This document shows, in pieces, positions 1 through 7,273 of a DNA stretch of 7,273 nt. The DNA lies in the NCBI GenBank assembly GCA_017470045.1, contig JAFUFG010000193.1, forward strand, positions 1 through 7,273, written 5' to 3'. Position 1 is the first letter of the stretch. Every line of letters starts with the position of its first letter. The DNA is from Bacilli bacterium (lineage in GTDB: Bacteria; Bacillota_I; Bacilli_A; RF39; UBA660). The translations under genes were made by a program, and so were the position numbers. The notes beneath the pieces were generated by a model. It was not told the DNA's origin, ran no database searches, and worked only from the letters and a program-made list of their open reading frames with translations.

Positions 1-3000
1 TCAACAACACTTGCAGATTTGCAGGGAAGTGACTTTGATATTGATAAGCTCTATTTTATGCGTTATGGGTTTACGGAAGACGGTAAATTAGCAACCTTCT
101 CAGACTTAGATCGTTATTTTAATCCTGAAAAGGTTCTCGATCTTCCTATTCCAGATGGAAAACAGATTAAAATAGAATCCTGAACAGCAGAATCAAGATT
201 ACTGTCTGCAATTTTTGGAGAAAATGTAGCAGAGGAAGACACCCTTGTTATTGATTCTGGAAAAGGTGGAATTGAATGTATTCAAAAAATTTTAGAGTCT
301 GGAAAGCCGCATATTTATATTTCTCCAAGCGTATTAGCGGATGAAAATTGATACTTGGATTCCATTGATCAATATAATAAAGATTTTCGTCGGGAACCAA
401 TGACTATTGAAAAATTACAAAGATTGATCAATATTCATCAACGTTCGAAACGGAGTAAGTCTTTAAAAAACATAGCTTTGCGTAATACAGTTGTTAGAGG
501 AATTTTAAATGTACTTACAGATGCAAGCACGCAATATAACCTCCAGATTCCAATTTCAATGAAAGAACAACAAGCTGCGGCTGGACTTTCTACAATGGCG
601 TCTGAGGAAAAATATCTAACTGCTGATAATCCTAGCGCCAAATTTGTGATGCAGGGACAAAATATGGTCGGACGTGATGTTATTGGAATTGGTGCTGCAT
701 CTCTAAAAGCTTTCTTTGCCGCATCAACGTATTACAATTTACAAGCTAATAAAATAGCAGAATTGTTAAAACAACCAGAATCATTAGAAAGAAATAACGC
801 AATATGAGAAGCAATTAAAACTGTATGCTTTAATGCCAAATTTGGAAACAGAATGCTTGTCACATTAGCTAATATTAATTGGGATGAAGCGATCGCTGCA
901 TTAAATGGCGTACAAGTTATTGAAGTTTCTGAATTAGGCTTGAATAATGTAAACAGTTACCTTGGTGATGAAAATAATGGATATGTTGTAAAAGGTTATA
1001 ATACTAATTTGATCAATATAGCAAAATTACTTGAAGATTTAAATACTGCTGCGAATGGAACGTGGCAAAGTCCAATAGATGCCGCATTTAGTTTATCTGG
1101 ATTAATTTCTGCAGCTACTGATAACGCTAAAGAGCTTATCTTAGCCAAAATCAATGCAACAAGTAAGTTTGCAGATATCTATACTTATTTGTTAAGCGCT
1201 GGAGAATCTTTTTCAAACATTGCTAAATTTATGACATCTCCTGTATTTTCAGTCGTTGCATCTTTTGCAGAAGGTAATATGATGGATTCCTCTACTAGAT
1301 TCTTTGATCTGGAACACGCTCTTGACTTTGTACTTGATGAAAAAACACTTCCAAATGTTGATAATGATATATTCATGTGAATACTTACTAATATGAAGGA
1401 AGATAACTTTATTAGTAGATTAATATATAAATCAAGAAGTGAAGCAAATATGGATTGAATTAGAGGTTTTGCTGAAAATGTTGCAGATGTTAGAACCGCC
1501 AGTGATGTTGAAAATGTAATTCGGTCCATTGTAAGTAATGCAAAAACAAATGAAAACGAATACACTGCAGCATATAAAGCGCTCGTAGCATATGTATATA
1601 AATCTTTAAGAGAAAATCCACAATATGTAGATTTATTACTTAACTACCTTCGCAATAAAGTGTCTATAACAAAACCACAAAATGACGATTATGATGAAAC
1701 GGTAGAGTACGATTTAATGATGGACGAAGATTACTTTATGGATGCTGAAGATGAAGATAATACAACAAAATCATATACATTTAATTATTCAAATTTAAAG
1801 CATCAAGACTGAATCAATTTCTATAGTTATGTAAAGAGATACTTGTACCCTAAAAACCAACAACTCATCGGAATATCTGATTTATCAGTTTTATCTAAGC
1901 TTAAAACCGATATAATTCCTGCGTTAAAAGAACAACGAATTCTATCTAAAATTTTGGGTATTAATCAGGGTTTAAATACAAAAGATTTTGATGAATATAA
2001 GTGAATCCGAGATATTGAGTCATTTGTTAATGAACGATATATCAATTCACCTTTTGCAGAAACATTTGAAGAATTTGATTTTGTTCAATTCGTTTCAGAT
2101 ACATCTGACGATCCAAATGGTTATCGTGCTAGACAAATAAAACAGTACGAACAGGTCAAATCTACATACAATATATTAGACATTGCAACATCTGTTAAAC
2201 AGTTTGGATCAATGATTGAATTAGCTGGAGTAAATAGAAAACTTATAGAAAAAGCATATGTTTTAAAAGCTGAACGTAGATTAGCAAAACAAATTCTTGA
2301 AGATAACAAAAAGAAGGTTGGTAGTTTATCAAGAGGACTCGTACAAAAATTTAATGATAAAGAGTATCAAGTACTTAGAAATTTTGTACAGGATCTTGTT
2401 ACGATGAATTGAATGAGAACACTAGACGATGTGTCTATTAAGATTCCATTTATAGAAAACAATCCACTTAAATTTTATTATCAAGGAACTTTAATTCCGC
2501 ATACATCTAGTACAGAGGAAAAAACAATTCCTTTAAGTAGCGCTGATGGAATGGCAACATTTAAATGAATGATGGAACACTATATTGTTGATAAATTAAA
2601 ACAAATGTATCCAAATAATCCATTTTTAGATGCACTTTCCGAATCATATCGAATCGATAAAGATACTGAAACGGCGATTACGTTTTTAACATTACCAATT
2701 GATTTAGGTCACGCAGATGAAAATTCAAAAACAGAACAAATGTACAATCTCTATCTGTCTGGTTTTAATAAGATTTGAAAAGATACTGTTCCTAAAGAAT
2801 TAGGTATTGGTGACTGAACAATAGGCGACTTATTCTATTTATATAACTTGTACGTTCACAAAGATGGATTTGGGCAAAACGCACTCACTCGTATATTTGA
2901 CAACGTTGTTCTTTCAGATGATGATAATACATTATTAAATCGGTACTATAAGTATATATCCAGACTCGATTCAGGAAGTGAAAAAATTGATGATGTAGAA

Positions 3001-4044
3001 AATGGAAGTAAGTCTTTATTAAATGAACTTCGACTTGCGTTATCTAGACAAAATTCAGCTGCTTCTAAATTTAGAGTGGAGTATGTGCCTGCTACAGATC
3101 GCAAACAAGCAGAATATAAATTAATGAATGCTGATTACAGTACTCAAGAAATTATTCCTGTAAGTACTTTGAATAAATCAGATTACGTATTTGGATTTAG
3201 TAATAGATATAATCCTATTAAAATTAATGTCACTGGTGATAATGCTCGAACTTTACAGGGTAAGAATAAACAAAAACGTAGAGTATCTGGTAGAGAAGCA
3301 ATGGAGGTTGTAGTAAAAGAACTTCAAAAAGCATTTGGCGAAAGATTACCAATTAGAATTATAGACAATGCTTGATTTGATGCTGCACCAGAATCTTTCA
3401 AAACAAGTGCAATAAAAAATGCAAAAGGTTTTATTAAAAATGGTGCAATTTACATCAATATTGATAATGCTACAGCTGGTACTTTGATACATGAATTTAT
3501 GCATGTGATTTTGGCAAAAATGAAATATAGTGACGATCAAAACGAAAGAGATCTTTATTATAATATGCTGAAGTCTATTAAATCTCAGGTTACTTCTCAA
3601 AGCGAATTCTGAACCAAATATTGGAATCAGGTAGAAAGTAGATATGGTGATTATGCAGTTGGTTCTGATTTTGAAGAAGAAGTTTTTACAGCAGCCGTTG
3701 AAGACTTACTGAGTACTGGTTTTTATAGAAACATGGGGGTTCGCACTGAAGAAGGTGCAGTAACATCGACATTTAAAGATTTTGCAGATAAAGTTGGACA
3801 AGCTGTTGCTAAATTATTTGCAGTTCCACCACAAGCGGATGGTGCTACACTTTTAAACATGAGTCTTGGAGATATCATTGTTAACTTAAGTAGTGGCTTG
3901 TTTAGTTTATCTGGAAGTGTATTTATGCAACACTATGTTCCAATTAATCAAAAACTAGCGGCTTTTAAACGAAGCCTTATCGTAGATTCAACAGAAGGGT
4001 TAGAACCAGATGAAGATTATATAACTATTGTTGGAGATTGTTAG
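1..4044 (+). CDS. Giant crAss-like virion RNA polymerase, C-terminal part, with fused zincin domain (5' partial, TGA = Trp)
   Basis: The frame is open from the window edge to TAG at 4042-4044, giving 1347 visible residues; the start is upstream. Thirteen in-frame TGA codons (181, 349, 805, 1378, 1456, 1810, 2002, 2410, 2566, 2776, 2815, 3373, 3610) are read as Trp, alongside three TGG (880, 1063, 3622). Visible residues 9-16 are GSDFDIDK, the DxDxD metal-binding loop of DNA-dependent RNA polymerases in the DFDID form known from crAss-like phage virion polymerases such as phi14:2 gp66. Residues 221-246 are a possible bridge helix. Residues 373-385 (TDNAKELILAKIN) look like a conserved helical block. 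Residues 562-585 are strongly acidic, and residues 750-780 are Lys/Arg-rich and helical. Residues 1097-1245 form a zincin-like domain. In the known family the enzyme is packaged in the virion, enters the cell with the DNA and transcribes early genes. No signal peptide or clear membrane segment is seen. The polymerase call rests mainly on one motif plus size and context; the coding call is nearly certain. Confidence 0.78.
25..48 (+). other. RNA polymerase catalytic metal-binding loop (DFDID)
   Basis: These codons read G-S-D-F-D-I-D-K, visible residues 9-16 of the first gene. In multisubunit-type RNA polymerases and their single-chain relatives, three aspartates in a DxDxD loop of the second double-psi beta-barrel hold the catalytic magnesium. 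Here they would be visible residues 11, 13 and 15. The cellular form is usually NADFDGD; the DFDID variant with Ile in place of Gly is typical of crAss-like phage polymerases. The preceding LADLQ and following KLYFM fit a strand-loop-strand. The first barrel and the rest of the core should lie upstream of the window. Confidence 0.75.
661..738 (+). other. Possible bridge-helix region of the RNA polymerase
   Basis: About 205 residues after the DFDID loop, visible residues 221-246 begin NMVGRDVIGIGAASLKAFF. The segment has closely spaced glycines and then a long, small-residue-rich helix. In this polymerase superfamily the bridge helix and trigger loop follow the metal-binding barrel, so position and composition fit. 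There is no decisive catalytic residue to confirm it. The TDNAKELILAKIN block at visible residues 373-385 is another candidate for a conserved active-site element. This is inference from position, not a motif match. Confidence 0.3.
3289..3735 (+). other. Zincin-like metalloprotease domain at the polymerase C-terminus
   Basis: Visible residues 1161-1169 read TLIHEFMHV, an HExxH zinc-binding motif with H1164 and H1168 as ligands and E1165 as catalytic base. It follows a block reading KNGAIYINIDNATAG, a predicted strand leading into the helix, as in zincins that have an edge strand before the HExxH helix. About 60 residues later the segment DFEEEVFTAAVEDLL offers a third ligand (E1226 or E1227) in a helix. 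This pattern recalls the gluzincin and ImmA/IrrE arrangement and the protease domains found in large multidomain phage proteins. One in-frame TGA (3373, W1125) lies inside the domain and another (3610, W1204) lies between the two zinc motifs, so the domain can be made intact only if TGA is read through. Possible targets are the giant protein itself, other ejected proteins or a host protein; none can be chosen from the sequence. Confidence 0.72.
4033..4036 (+). promoter_or_regulatory. Ribosome-binding site GGAG for the second gene
   Basis: GGAG lies inside the last codons of the polymerase gene, with nine bases between it and the ATG at 4046-4048. This supports ATG 4046 over the in-frame TTG at 4028, which would overlap the upstream gene by 17 bases. 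The site also encodes Gly-Asp, so its use as a Shine-Dalgarno element is likely but not proven. Confidence 0.6.
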
Positions 4045-4045
4045 T

Positions 4046-7000
4046 ATGGCGTGTGAAATAAAATTTAAATTTGGAAATATTAATAAAACATTTGAATCGA
4101 ATGAAGAACTGGATGGTTGGCTTTACGACCATCCAGGTCTCATTCGTTTAAATGAGATACAAGGAGATGTACAATTCTCTTTAGGCAATAAAACTGAGGC
4201 TCAAAAAGAGACAATTGGAAGAATCAATAAAGCTGTTGCAGATAGAGCTAAAATACAAAACTCTAGAACAAATACAACATTTTTGCCAAATTTAGGTGCT
4301 AGTGCTGTTCCGATTGGCCCAACAACAGCTTTTCAGTATATGGGAGCTCCATCTGGAAATAGTTTTACTGCACCAGTAGTAACATATAAGAATGCGGGTA
4401 ATGAAAATCTTAAAAAGTTTTATACGGGCATAGGTAATGATTTTGAAAAAGCCTTTGAATATTGTTTATATGGTACTGAATATAAAGGTAAAATTATAAA
4501 AAATCCTACAAAAAGAGACGAATTAATAAATGTTGCACAACGTATATTAAAAGCAATTAAAGATAAACACGGAAACGATTGTTATATAATGCTTCAAACT
4601 AAAATTAGTGCTTCAGATATTTCTTCATCTTTCTTAGATGCTGTCCATGCTACAATGGGTCAACGTCGAGATAAAGCTGGTAATATTATTCCAGCAATAC
4701 CAATGGTTGATAATTCTGGAAATCAATACTCTATAATGGTGGATGCATCTGGAAATCAACATGTTGCAACTGGAGCGGATGTTAATAGTTTTGTTGGAGA
4801 TATTGATTTGCTTGTAATTGATTCATCCGGTAAAGCGTTTGTTTATGATTTTAAAACATCTGGTAGAGATATAACGGTTGATAATCATCCAAATTATGCT
4901 TTGCAAATTGCTGCATATCGTCAGATATTAAAACAATATGATGTTGATGTTGCAGATGATTGTTATCTTATTCCCGTTAAAATTGATTATCAAGGAAATG
5001 TTAATCCTGATTTGGAAGATGACAATATTAAAGGCTTTTCCATAAATATAAATAATTGAAGAATTCCTGTAAACGAAGGAAGTGATTATGCACGTAGGGT
5101 TTCAAAGTGATTTCCATCTAAAGTAAATGTTAACTACGATGGATACGCCAAAGTACACGAAGTAATGGAAAAATGTTTTCCGACTGCTAGTGTGCAGACC
5201 CAAACTCGCATAAAAGAAGCTACCGTTGAAAAAGAGATGGAAGAAAAGAAGCGTATTCCTGAAAATGATCCTGATTATAAACTTGGTTTTAGATGAAAGT
5301 ATTGAAAGAAAGGGTTTGTTGCCTCTGGCGAATCTAAAGTAATTGTGGCTACATCTGAAGACGAACTTAAAAATAAAATCTCTGAATGAATTGTTAAATA
5401 TAATGAACGTGCGGCTGAAACCAATACATTATTTGCAAAGAATTTACAATATGCTATGCGTATGCGTAGTAAATCAGAGTTAAAAGAAGCTGCAATAAAT
5501 TATAATCAGTCTAACACAGATTATATAGTTTCTGCATTCGGAAGATATGTTACTGGAAATTGAGAGTTGGTTTCTAACGACTTGATGATTGCAAATGGGT
5601 TTTTCCTTTTTCAAAAAGGTGATATTGTTGAATTGGTTGTTCTTTCTACACACAATTTGTTTAATAGGTTAAATTTTGATCACGGTAAAACAACTAGACC
5701 GTATAATTCAATTTTAGGATTCTTTGCTTCTGATGAAGAGGGTTTGGATTCAAGGTGAGTTCTTCCAAATTTCTTTGGAAATATAGAAATGATGAAAGGA
5801 ATGATCTTTCTTAGTCAACATCCTGAACTATTTGTAGATAAAAAAATAAATAAGGTGTCTGCACTTAGTTTGATGAGCCCTGGATACATGGAGGAATCTA
5901 ATGAAAAACTTATTGAGAATTTTAAATTATTAAATAAGTATTATAAACAAACATATAAGGAAGATCTTGGTGTATTTAGCACAGAACGAGAGTTTACAAA
6001 AGACGTTGATTCGTATGTACGTCAAGCTATGGATCTTATGGAACATAGTGAAGAACTTCGTCCAATGTTGCAAAAACCTGCATTCGAAGATGTATCAAAT
6101 CCAGACATAAAGCAATTAATGCGAATGATTAATACCCTTCGCAATAGACGAGGTGATAAACTTTATAAAATAAGTTCTGCAAACTGATCTGATCCTGATT
6201 GGGTTGCATTACAATATTTAGATAGGGCACTTCTTAGTAAAATCGCGTATCAAATATCTCCAGAATTACGAACCGGTGCATATACGTCTGGAGGCCTGGC
6301 ATTAGATGGATTGTATGCTAGATCTTTTGCAGATTCTAAATCAGCAATAGCAAGAACACTGCATGAAGCTACATACAGTTGAGTCAGAATTTGTCAAAAT
6401 GAATTTGTACAATATACGAATGCTTGAAAAAAGGCAATTCGCGATTTATATGTAGAAAGCGGGCACAGTATGTTCTGAGGAGGAGAATGAAATTTCTTTG
6501 AACAATTCTTTTTAAAACAAGATGGTAAACTAGATTCTCGATTCATATTAAAGCCAAGAGGATCTATGCAAACAAGTAAACAGAATAAAGTTTTATCTTT
6601 ATTTTATGATGCGATAGATCGTTTTAAGTATGGAAACGATGAAGATAAAATTAATGCTGCTATTGCAAATGGAACATATGGAATCGTTCCTCTGATAAAG
6701 AGTCATTTAAATGAAAAACTTGGAAAAATGAATCCAATTAAAGCAATTGGTGATAAATGATCTACGGATTGAAACGTATTTAAAGACTTTTTACTTGGAA
6801 TTGATATTTCAGAAGCTCGTGTAAGAGAGTTAAATGACATCGATGCAGGAAAATTACCAAGTTTTGTTTTCGATGATGAGTTTAGAGAACAAAAGTTAAC
6901 GGCTAAAGGAGATGAAGATCCTACTGCTAAATATACAACGGACATTGATTTGATTTTTAATATGATGGTTGCAGAAGGTATAAAACGCGAAAGAAGTCCA

Positions 7001-7273
7001 CAAATGCTTATGACGGCTTCTGCAATTCGTGCTGTAACATCTTATATGATTAATAGGGGCCTTGATAGAACTGGTAACTGACAAGAATTTTCTGAAGGTA
7101 TTGACGATTATGTTAAACGTAAAATCTTTAATATGCCTATTATCAATGAAAGTAATACTAACTTGCAACGAGTAATAAATATAATCAAAGGTATTACTTC
7201 TGTTACTACGTTGGGTGCTTCTGTTAAAGCGTTTACACGAGAAACAATCACTGGCATAGAGAGAGCTTTCGCA
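4046..7273 (+). CDS. Giant phage protein with N-terminal PD-(D/E)XK nuclease domain (3' partial, TGA = Trp)
   Basis: The gene starts at ATG 4046, one base after the TAG of the polymerase gene, behind GGAG. It stays open to the window end, giving 1076 visible residues. Fifteen in-frame TGA codons are read as Trp (5057, 5108, 5294, 5303, 5387, 5561, 5756, 6185, 6380, 6425, 6476, 6488, 6758, 6770, 7079), with two TGG (4118, 6200). Residues 1-115 include a short ubiquitin-like-looking start (MACEIKFKFGN) and a low-complexity Ser/Thr/Pro/Gly linker. Residues 118-315 are a PD-(D/E)XK nuclease of RecB/Cas4 type. The stretch around residues 388-403 is Lys/Glu-rich and probably helical. From about residue 340 onward I recognise no family; it is mostly helical and polar, with an aromatic-rich block at residues 779-825. 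No signal peptide or membrane segment is evident. Placement directly behind the virion polymerase suggests co-expression and possibly co-packaging, which is inference. The coding call is very secure and the function of the C-terminal two thirds is unknown. Confidence 0.9.
4397..4990 (+). other. PD-(D/E)XK (RecB/Cas4-like) nuclease domain
   Basis: The active-site motifs appear in the canonical order. Residues 129-139 (IGNDFEKAFEY) form the N-terminal helix, where E134 could be the first acidic residue. Residues 250-259 (VGDIDLLVID) give the D252/D254 metal ligand on a core strand. Residues 266-272 (VYDFKTS) give the D-x-K pair D268 and K270. Residues 287-293 (QIAAYRQ) are the Q-x-x-x-Y helix typical of RecB-family nucleases. 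A final strand (residues 306-314, CYLIPVKID) completes the fold. All expected catalytic residues are present, so an active metal-dependent DNA nuclease is plausible. The domain has no TGA codon. Whether it acts as an exonuclease, a DNA end processor or a host-DNA-degrading enzyme cannot be read from the sequence. Confidence 0.82.
4703..4759 (+). repeat. Short direct repeat inside the nuclease domain
   Basis: Two 24-base copies (4703-4726 and 4736-4759, period 33 bases) match at 20 of 24 positions. They encode MVDNSGNQ and MVDASGNQ at residues 220-227 and 231-238 of the second gene. The copies sit just before the GDID strand and could form a beta-hairpin or a small insertion between the first helix and the core strand. 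The length and near identity suggest a local 33-base tandem duplication, although convergence of a hairpin motif is possible. Confidence 0.6.

Follow-up and report, generated by a model that had tools for sequence, protein, structure and literature searches.

A TGA-to-tryptophan recoded crAss-like phage fragment and the predicted two-armed suppressor tRNAs of its relatives

Recoding of TGA to tryptophan (Trp), UCA suppressor tRNAs and an imperfect agreement between the two have been published for crAss-like phages (PMC7886860, Yutin et al. 2021; PMC12386605, on the Lera phage), and the amber codon is recoded in the phage phAss-1, which has a suppressor tRNA-Gln (PMC10607447); these and all other published sources are cited here from the portions of each that were available to us. 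We analysed a stretch of 7,273 nucleotides, positions 1 to 7,273 of contig JAFUFG010000193.1 (hereafter the window), which comes from the RNA-polymerase genes of a crAss-like phage and holds two giant partial genes, ORF1 and ORF2, with many in-frame TGA codons. The window itself is ordinary, another TGA-to-Trp recoded crAss-like phage of a kind already published. In its relatives there is a recurrent, covarying tRNA architecture, predicted from the gene sequences, with two anticodon arms: arm 1 bears the stop anticodon and arm 2 a sense anticodon. We consider it highly probable that the window's phage uses UGA as a Trp codon, most likely by means of its own Trp-charged UCA tRNA, and that arm 2 in the relatives keeps the anticodon recognised by tryptophanyl-tRNA synthetase (TrpRS).

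The relatives resemble the published TGA-to-Trp crAss-like phages in having TGA as Trp in RNA polymerase and TerL, a UCA tRNA of their own, and kin with TAG recoding or the standard code. They differ in the second anticodon arm, which goes unmentioned in the available portions of PMC7886860 and PMC12386605, and they stand apart from crAss001, with TerL at 25-31% identity and, in a one-sequence search, no match to its major capsid protein (MCP). Like phAss-1 they reassign a stop through phage suppressor tRNAs, although the codon and the amino acid are different and the available text of PMC10607447 has no mention of a second arm. A precedent is the published claim, again seen in part, of a chloroplast tRNA-Ser with two anticodon arms, one of which matches a stop codon and was proposed to read through stops; in the phage tRNAs, however, the stop anticodon sits in arm 1 and the anticodon of the inserted residue in arm 2, there are many such tRNAs with covarying stems, and a role with the synthetase is proposed. 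With tRNA-Sec (PMC7609411) they share the UCA anticodon and an enlarged variable region, but not the discriminator base, which is G73 in 39 of 39 phage sequences, nor the second anticodon-type arm (U33-CCA), and the best Rfam match of two examples is plain tRNA. Finally, the tRNA-Trp(CCA) with a 4-bp anticodon stem (PMC13092985) is likewise a changed Trp tRNA that makes UGA Trp; there a single shortened arm carries CCA, whereas the phage tRNAs carry UCA and CCA on separate arms. We found no description of two-armed suppressor tRNAs in phages in the literature searched, judged mostly from titles and the beginnings of abstracts.

TGA as a tryptophan codon in the window

The two genes point in the same direction, and the features on which the reading of TGA depends are as follows.

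1..4044, plus strand: ORF1, the 3' part of a giant crAss-like RNA-polymerase-type protein, open at its 5' end; 1,347 amino acids in translation table 4; homologues P0017-P0019
4042..4044, plus strand: TAG, the end of ORF1
4046..7273, plus strand: ORF2, the 5' part of a protein of about 1,500 amino acids, beginning with ATG at 4046 and open at its 3' end; 1,076 amino acids in table 4
5108..5110, plus strand: TGA codon whose column reads Trp in all 16 aligned proteins
5561..5563, plus strand: TGA codon whose column reads Trp in all 16 aligned proteins
6425..6427, plus strand: TGA codon whose column reads Trp in all 16 aligned proteins

A direct recount gave 28 in-frame TGA codons against 5 TGG across the two genes (13 and 3 in ORF1, 15 and 2 in ORF2) and no internal TAA or TAG, so that reading TGA as Trp yields 33 Trp in 2,423 codons, or 1.4%. 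The three minus-strand frames of the window hold 120, 81 and 107 TAA plus TAG codons, and the absence of these codons from ORF1 and ORF2 is thus due to selection and not to composition or chance. Read in table 11 both genes break into fragments, while table 4 keeps both whole; the start of ORF2 at 4046 matches that of its homologues P0001 and P0002.

Fifteen homologues of ORF2, each of about 1,500 amino acids (P0001-P0015; 99% coverage, 38-77% identity, P0002 at 74%), were aligned, leaving out a partial sixteenth, P0016. At the 15 TGA columns of ORF2 they have W in 131 of 210 non-gap cells, followed by Y (23) and F (19); at those of ORF1, W fills 14 of 36 non-gap cells from three proteins. Because homologous proteins may themselves come from recoded genomes, the test was redone at the level of DNA. 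A scan with the ORF1 alignment gave 45 loci and one with the ORF2 alignment a single distant locus; the loci were grouped by code by hand (14 standard, 15 TAG, 17 TGA), and six near-identical copies were dropped. In the standard-code relatives no residue is more frequent than W at the TGA columns of the window; it fills 14 of 75 cells, all of them TGG, compared with 44 of 6,990 at non-Trp positions (Fisher p 5e-16, the cells of related phages being non-independent). The TGA-recoded relatives have W in 40 of 279 cells (23 TGA, 17 TGG) and Y or F in 75. TGA in the window's genes is best read as Trp from these alignments, since W tops the standard-code columns while Gly and Arg are rare there.

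The original prediction, made from the letters of the window, had proposed this same reading, and it holds up well. Its counts (28 TGA, 5 TGG, no internal TAA or TAG, a single gene end in TAG) were exact and its Trp fraction of about 1.4% was reproduced; the alignment it had called for gave the W cells just described (131 of 210; 14 of 75 against 44 of 6,990), and Gly, which it had named as a contrary residue in standard-code homologues, occupies 2 of the 75 cells. That UGA is instead read as another residue (Gly, Arg, Cys or selenocysteine), or merely by chance readthrough, is scarcely credible. ARAGORN does call the UCA tRNAs SeC, but that label tracks the anticodon alone; the 75 standard-code cells hold W 14, F 12, L 8, Y 7, I 7, Gly 2, Arg 1 and Cys 0, and 28 UGA codons in two giant genes would be too many for leakage. 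The idea that the second arm causes the SeC and Pyl labels was dropped, as the labels follow the anticodon.

A predicted second anticodon arm in phage suppressor tRNAs

tRNA genes were detected in 10 of the 17 TGA-recoded records, and a UCA tRNA in five (G002, G003, G006, G011 and G012) of the seven that reach at least 140 kb. No TrpRS-type (PF00579) or release-factor (PF00472) domain was found in any of the 17, many of which are fragmentary, with controls positive in 14 of 14 and 10 of 14 genomes; nor was a TrpRS found in the 38 records with a two- or one-armed UCA tRNA. A phage-borne suppressor tRNA, as guessed in the original prediction, is supported in the relatives; the window's own phage most likely has one too, charged with Trp. 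The altered release factor 2 and Trp-tRNA synthetase that were to be looked for did not turn up in the relatives (0 of 17), and the statement that the window itself has no suppressor tRNA agrees with ARAGORN. Two of these phages have further stop-anticodon tRNAs: G011, TGA-recoded, has a one-armed CUA tRNA at L058:4394-4466 alongside its two-armed UCA tRNA, and G003, TGA-recoded with genes that end in TAA, has a tRNA with the ochre anticodon UUA at L051:4960-5034.

We think it very unlikely that code 4, the code of mycoplasmas, belongs to the host and that the phage has simply adapted to it. Such a host would account for the lack of a suppressor tRNA in the window and for the failure to find one in G008 and G010, but the same protein family spans standard, TAG- and TGA-recoded phages and five of the seven large TGA-recoded records carry a UCA tRNA. 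Bacteroidetes are given as the hosts of crAss-like phages (PMC7886860), and the standard code is said to persist in many of the hosts that recoded phages infect (PMC12386605).

Four of the five UCA tRNAs called by ARAGORN are 93-94 nt long and the fifth, in G003, is 72 nt. In the four, a second stem-loop replaces the variable loop between the first anticodon arm and the T arm, and its loop, CUCCAAA or GUCCAAA, is the Trp anticodon loop, U33-CCA-A37; in L060 the arm reads CCGGU CUCCAAA ACCGG. A blastn search of phages with the 3' half, from arm 2 to the end, matched mostly annotated tRNA-Trp genes, and the 5' half matched tRNA-Trp genes and some tRNA-Arg genes, so that both halves match tRNA-Trp genes, as expected if an anticodon arm was duplicated.

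When viral_contigs was scanned with a pattern made up of the UCA loop, TCCAAAR and a T loop, 68 stretches came up, of which 51 parse as tRNAs and 17 do not (at least 6 of 7 acceptor pairs, a UCA arm, a T arm and TCCA in a long variable region, 7+5 bp being assumed). Together with one sequence from an independent scan they give 39 distinct two-armed UCA tRNAs. Although the parse did not require it, the stem of arm 2 has at least 4 of 5 pairs in all 39; 183 of its 195 cells are paired, against a permutation mean of 119 and maximum of 137 (2,000 permutations) and at most 96 when the stem is slid. In the alignment, four of the five pairs change on both sides and 88.9% of cells are paired. The gap between arm 2 and the T arm is 3-5 nt in each of the 39, the linker between the arms measures 4-6 nt in 33 of 39, and the discriminator is G73 in all. 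The remaining six have shorter linkers before arm 2; L069 and L075, which have D arms that are Ser-like by eye, other linker lengths and TCCAAA in the variable arm, are possibly a different kind of tRNA caught by the pattern.

As the first pattern fixes the arm 2 loop, a loop-free scan was made that fixed only the D arm and arm 1. Of its 17 stretches 14 have a second arm, with U-CCA in every case; 13 of these repeat members of the first set, while L136 is an addition whose loop, GTCCATA, falls outside the first pattern. L134, L135 and L137 are one-armed. When a covariance model built from the 39 (R1) was applied to 35 crAss-like records, the top scores, 94-102 bits, went to the four two-armed UCA tRNAs already known, followed by two two-armed CUA tRNAs (63 and 57), the one-armed UCA tRNA (54) and other tRNAs (at most 51). 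Rfam, tried on two two-armed UCA tRNAs (L316, L318), gave RF00005 and not the Sec model as the best match for both, leaving the second arm as an insert. Minimum-free-energy folding recovers the two anticodon arms in L060, L106, L123 and L093, with a mis-paired T arm in the last of these; it does not recover the pair in L079 and L271, and in L139 it does so only with a shortened second loop. Clustering of the tRNA bodies at 65% gave one big cluster, with L123 alone. By a density rule, 23 of the 35 records with a two-armed UCA tRNA are TGA-recoded, none is TAG-recoded and 12 are not clearly recoded; in 102 control loci the rule called TGA in 0 and TAG in 2.

A control independent of the tRNA pattern consisted of 178 tRNAs in 30 loci that it had not picked, of which 161 were parsed: nine with stop anticodons (5 UCA, 3 CUA, 1 UUA) and 152 others. 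Six of the nine have a long variable region, and all six have the cognate anticodon in a second arm; with a strict 7-nt loop the count is five of six, L059 being added with a stem that closes around 9 nt, and for CUA the rule accepted Gln, Trp or Tyr, both cases coming out as Gln. Among 28 other long-variable tRNAs (8 class I, 20 Ser/Leu/Tyr) a cognate second arm occurs in none (Fisher p 7e-7 for six of six, 2e-5 for five of six). A looser parse of the pattern-free CUA tRNAs adds the one-armed L148 and two doubtful cases.

These counts bear on whether arm 2 is simply a long variable arm of the usual kind, like that of tRNA-Ser, Leu, Tyr or Sec, whose likeness to an anticodon arm is an accident or an artefact of the search, a reading that we find improbable. 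It gains from the facts that two pattern scans fixed the loop, that six of the 39 UCA sequences have shorter linkers, some with Ser-like D arms (L069, L075), and that the amber stems described below are short, with 57 of 80 cells paired. Against it, pattern-free calls by ARAGORN have the cognate arm 2 in 4 of 5 UCA and 2 of 3 CUA tRNAs, compared with 0 of 28 other long-variable tRNAs, and in the scan that fixed the D arm and arm 1, 14 of 17 stretches have a second arm, U-CCA each time and in one instance with a loop that the first pattern did not cover.

The amber codon would offer a parallel, with shorter stems and weaker evidence. In the TAG-recoded relatives G020 and G022 the CUA tRNAs, found without the tRNA pattern, are 90 and 88 nt long, and their second-arm loop, UUCUGAG or CUCUGAA, is U33-CUG, a Gln anticodon; a third TAG-recoded relative with a two-armed CUA tRNA, G068, was found both by model R1 and by the pattern scan. 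A looser pattern scan returned at least 120 stretches, at least 18 of which hold two-armed CUA tRNAs, and the distinct ones number at least 16 in all; of their 80 stem cells 57 are paired, against a permutation maximum of 51. The published phage phAss-1 (OQ749652; L271), reached by blastn from a pattern-found tRNA, has a one-armed CUA tRNA at 417-488 beside a two-armed one with a Gln anticodon at 495-582. One-armed CUA tRNAs also exist in L058, L112 and L148. By density, and in short stretches, the loci that carry two-armed CUA tRNAs look TAG-recoded in 5 cases, TGA-recoded in 2 and not clear in 13; the two-armed, Gln-type CUA tRNAs in the loci TGA-recoded by density, L161 and L173, may reflect these short stretches. 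In L138, from G020, long variable arms occur on tRNAs with Glu, Gln, Lys and Arg anticodons (495-737, 10590-10675 and 14256-14341), and a tmRNA is called at 2444-2840 in the same region.

The RNA-polymerase gene block and its relatives

The window is crAss-like by the DxDxD motif of ORF1 and, as far as sequence comparison goes, by the TerL of its relatives; no formal placement in Crassvirales is claimed. Three further features of its genes are listed here.

31..45, plus strand: DFDID (DxDxD) motif, in GSDFDIDKLYFM; the counterpart in crAss001 gp50 is GSDFDVDKLYIM
3490..3504, plus strand: HEFMH (HExxH) motif; HExxH near the protein end also in L004, L006, L017 and L007
4769..4942, plus strand: PD-(D/E)XK nuclease domain in ORF2 (PF12705, E 3.5e-5)

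The gp50 of Bacteroides phage crAss001 is annotated as a putative RNA polymerase, and its DxDxD arrangement, GSDFDVDKLYIM, parallels GSDFDIDKLYFM in the window. A weak profile match between ORF1 and gp50 (67 columns, E 8e-4 for the pair, probability 25%) lies downstream of DxDxD in both. The whole ORF1-type protein measures 3,050-3,447 amino acids in L004, L006, L007 and L017, with the frame split in L005; its HExxH we take to be a zincin-type metallopeptidase motif. ORF2 had no significant match to crAss001 gp49 by hhalign (probability 2.5%, E 0.018), and a PDB sequence search (query A2) returned nothing below E 0.26.

Homologues of crAss001 TerL occur in 10 of 16 other records, all of them relatives and not the window itself, and their 25-31% identity marks the distance from crAss001. 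TerL has 4-6 in-frame TGA codons in five of the six TGA-recoded records matched, the sixth, G010, having 1 and 2 in two partial matches; in two TAG-recoded records it holds TAG (3 and 4), and in two standard-code records no recoded stops. PF03237, a less successful probe for TerL than the crAss001 protein, gave weak matches in 3 of 46 records, and a one-sequence search with the crAss001 MCP matched 0 of 16 records but is too insensitive to exclude an MCP of the crAss type.

A tree of ORF1 with 38 rows places the window in a clade of 16 rows (support 100/100) in which each of the 12 loci is from the TGA group, the other rows being the window and three proteins of uncertain code; the deep order of the tree is unsure because some branches are long and the filling of rows is uneven. 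Within this clade lies a starred 8-row clade of the window with L004, L005, L006, L014, L017, P0017 and P0018, in which all four records of at least 140 kb (G002, G003, G011, G012) have a UCA tRNA, three of them two-armed and one one-armed. L006 (G003) and L017 (G012) are sisters in the tree, the former having the one-armed 72-nt UCA tRNA and the latter a two-armed one with a different body; perhaps the UCA suppressor tRNA was exchanged recently between these sister phages.

This protein family is present in standard-code, TAG-recoded and TGA-recoded phages. Megablast found no near-identical or full-length relative of the window in phages, and further searches there gave no match to ORF2 and two weak ones to ORF1. 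Single-sequence queries returned no such relative in viral_contigs, and none came from genome_contigs; recoded kin could be missed, as several of the back-translated patterns contained Trp, probably written as TGG. The ORF1 family had no match in the 38 records with a two- or one-armed UCA tRNA in a search run without a positive control.

A proposed separation of decoding from charging

TrpRS identity lies in the anticodon bases and the discriminator base, G73 in E. coli and B. subtilis, glutaminyl-tRNA synthetase (GlnRS) uses U35 and G36 among others, and an amber tRNA-Trp is mischarged with Gln (all from PMC9976931). A suppressor tRNA therefore loses part of its identity, because both synthetases recognise anticodon bases that a stop anticodon changes. 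We propose that arm 2 preserves the identity anticodon for TrpRS. The phage would make its own UCA tRNA, the host TrpRS would charge it with Trp, and the charged tRNA would outcompete release factor 2. Arm 1, stacked on the D arm, would meet the ribosome. Arm 2, which carries U33-CCA and adjoins the T arm, would present its sense anticodon to the synthetase, in a predicted geometry that probably has it swing to the place of the anticodon. Our confidence is evenly divided on the wider proposal that phages with reassigned stop codons, UGA-Trp and UAG-Gln at the least, evolved two-armed tRNAs that split decoding (arm 1) from recognition by the host TrpRS or GlnRS (arm 2). Since one-armed suppressors exist, arm 2 would improve charging rather than permit it.

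Two other uses of arm 2 may be imagined. Both heads could decode, with UGA read by arm 1 and UGG by arm 2 in two alternating folds, which we think unlikely: the tRNA regions of G002, G006, G011 and G012 list no tRNA-Trp(CCA) of its own, and the spacing of 3-5 nt between arm 2 and the T arm (39 of 39) resembles that of a true anticodon arm, but a UCA anticodon as a rule also reads UGG by wobble, and in the amber case the second anticodon would serve a codon that the host already reads. Alternatively, arm 2 could be a decoy, a false cut site for defence nucleases that cleave anticodons, against which phages reportedly carry tRNAs. This we regard as most improbable, since a cognate second arm was found only on stop-anticodon tRNAs and on 0 of 152 others, which a decoy leaves unexplained.

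Several observations weigh against a tRNA-borne Trp reading of UGA in which arm 2 serves TrpRS. ARAGORN finds no tRNA gene in the 7,273-nt window, so that no tRNA of the window's own phage is seen; among TGA-recoded records of at least 140 kb, G008 and G010 have no detected UCA tRNA, and with the one-armed UCA tRNA of G003 they indicate that arm 2 is not indispensable. At the window's TGA columns the TAG-recoded relatives, in which TGA is still a stop, have W in 5 of 88 cells (72 of 10,242 elsewhere), Y being commonest with 20 and Y and F together filling 30. TCCAAAR was fixed in the 68-stretch scan, and the unbiased evidence on the loop comes from fewer sequences; the fold energies of seven tRNAs are modestly better than those of shuffles (z -1.3 to -3.6). 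Lastly, 12 of the 35 carriers show no clear recoding in the stretches examined, G029 and G056 leaning to TAG, and the density rule took the best of one to three stretches for carriers and one stretch per control locus.

If the proposal that arm 2 serves the host synthetase is true, a phage could alter the genetic code without a synthetase of its own, and a single tRNA would use one anticodon for decoding and another for charging. This would help to explain how UCA tRNAs are charged in phages without a detected TrpRS (0 of 17 and 0 of 38 records). The conflict between stop-codon reassignment and synthetase identity would then have a simple natural solution in the second anticodon arm.

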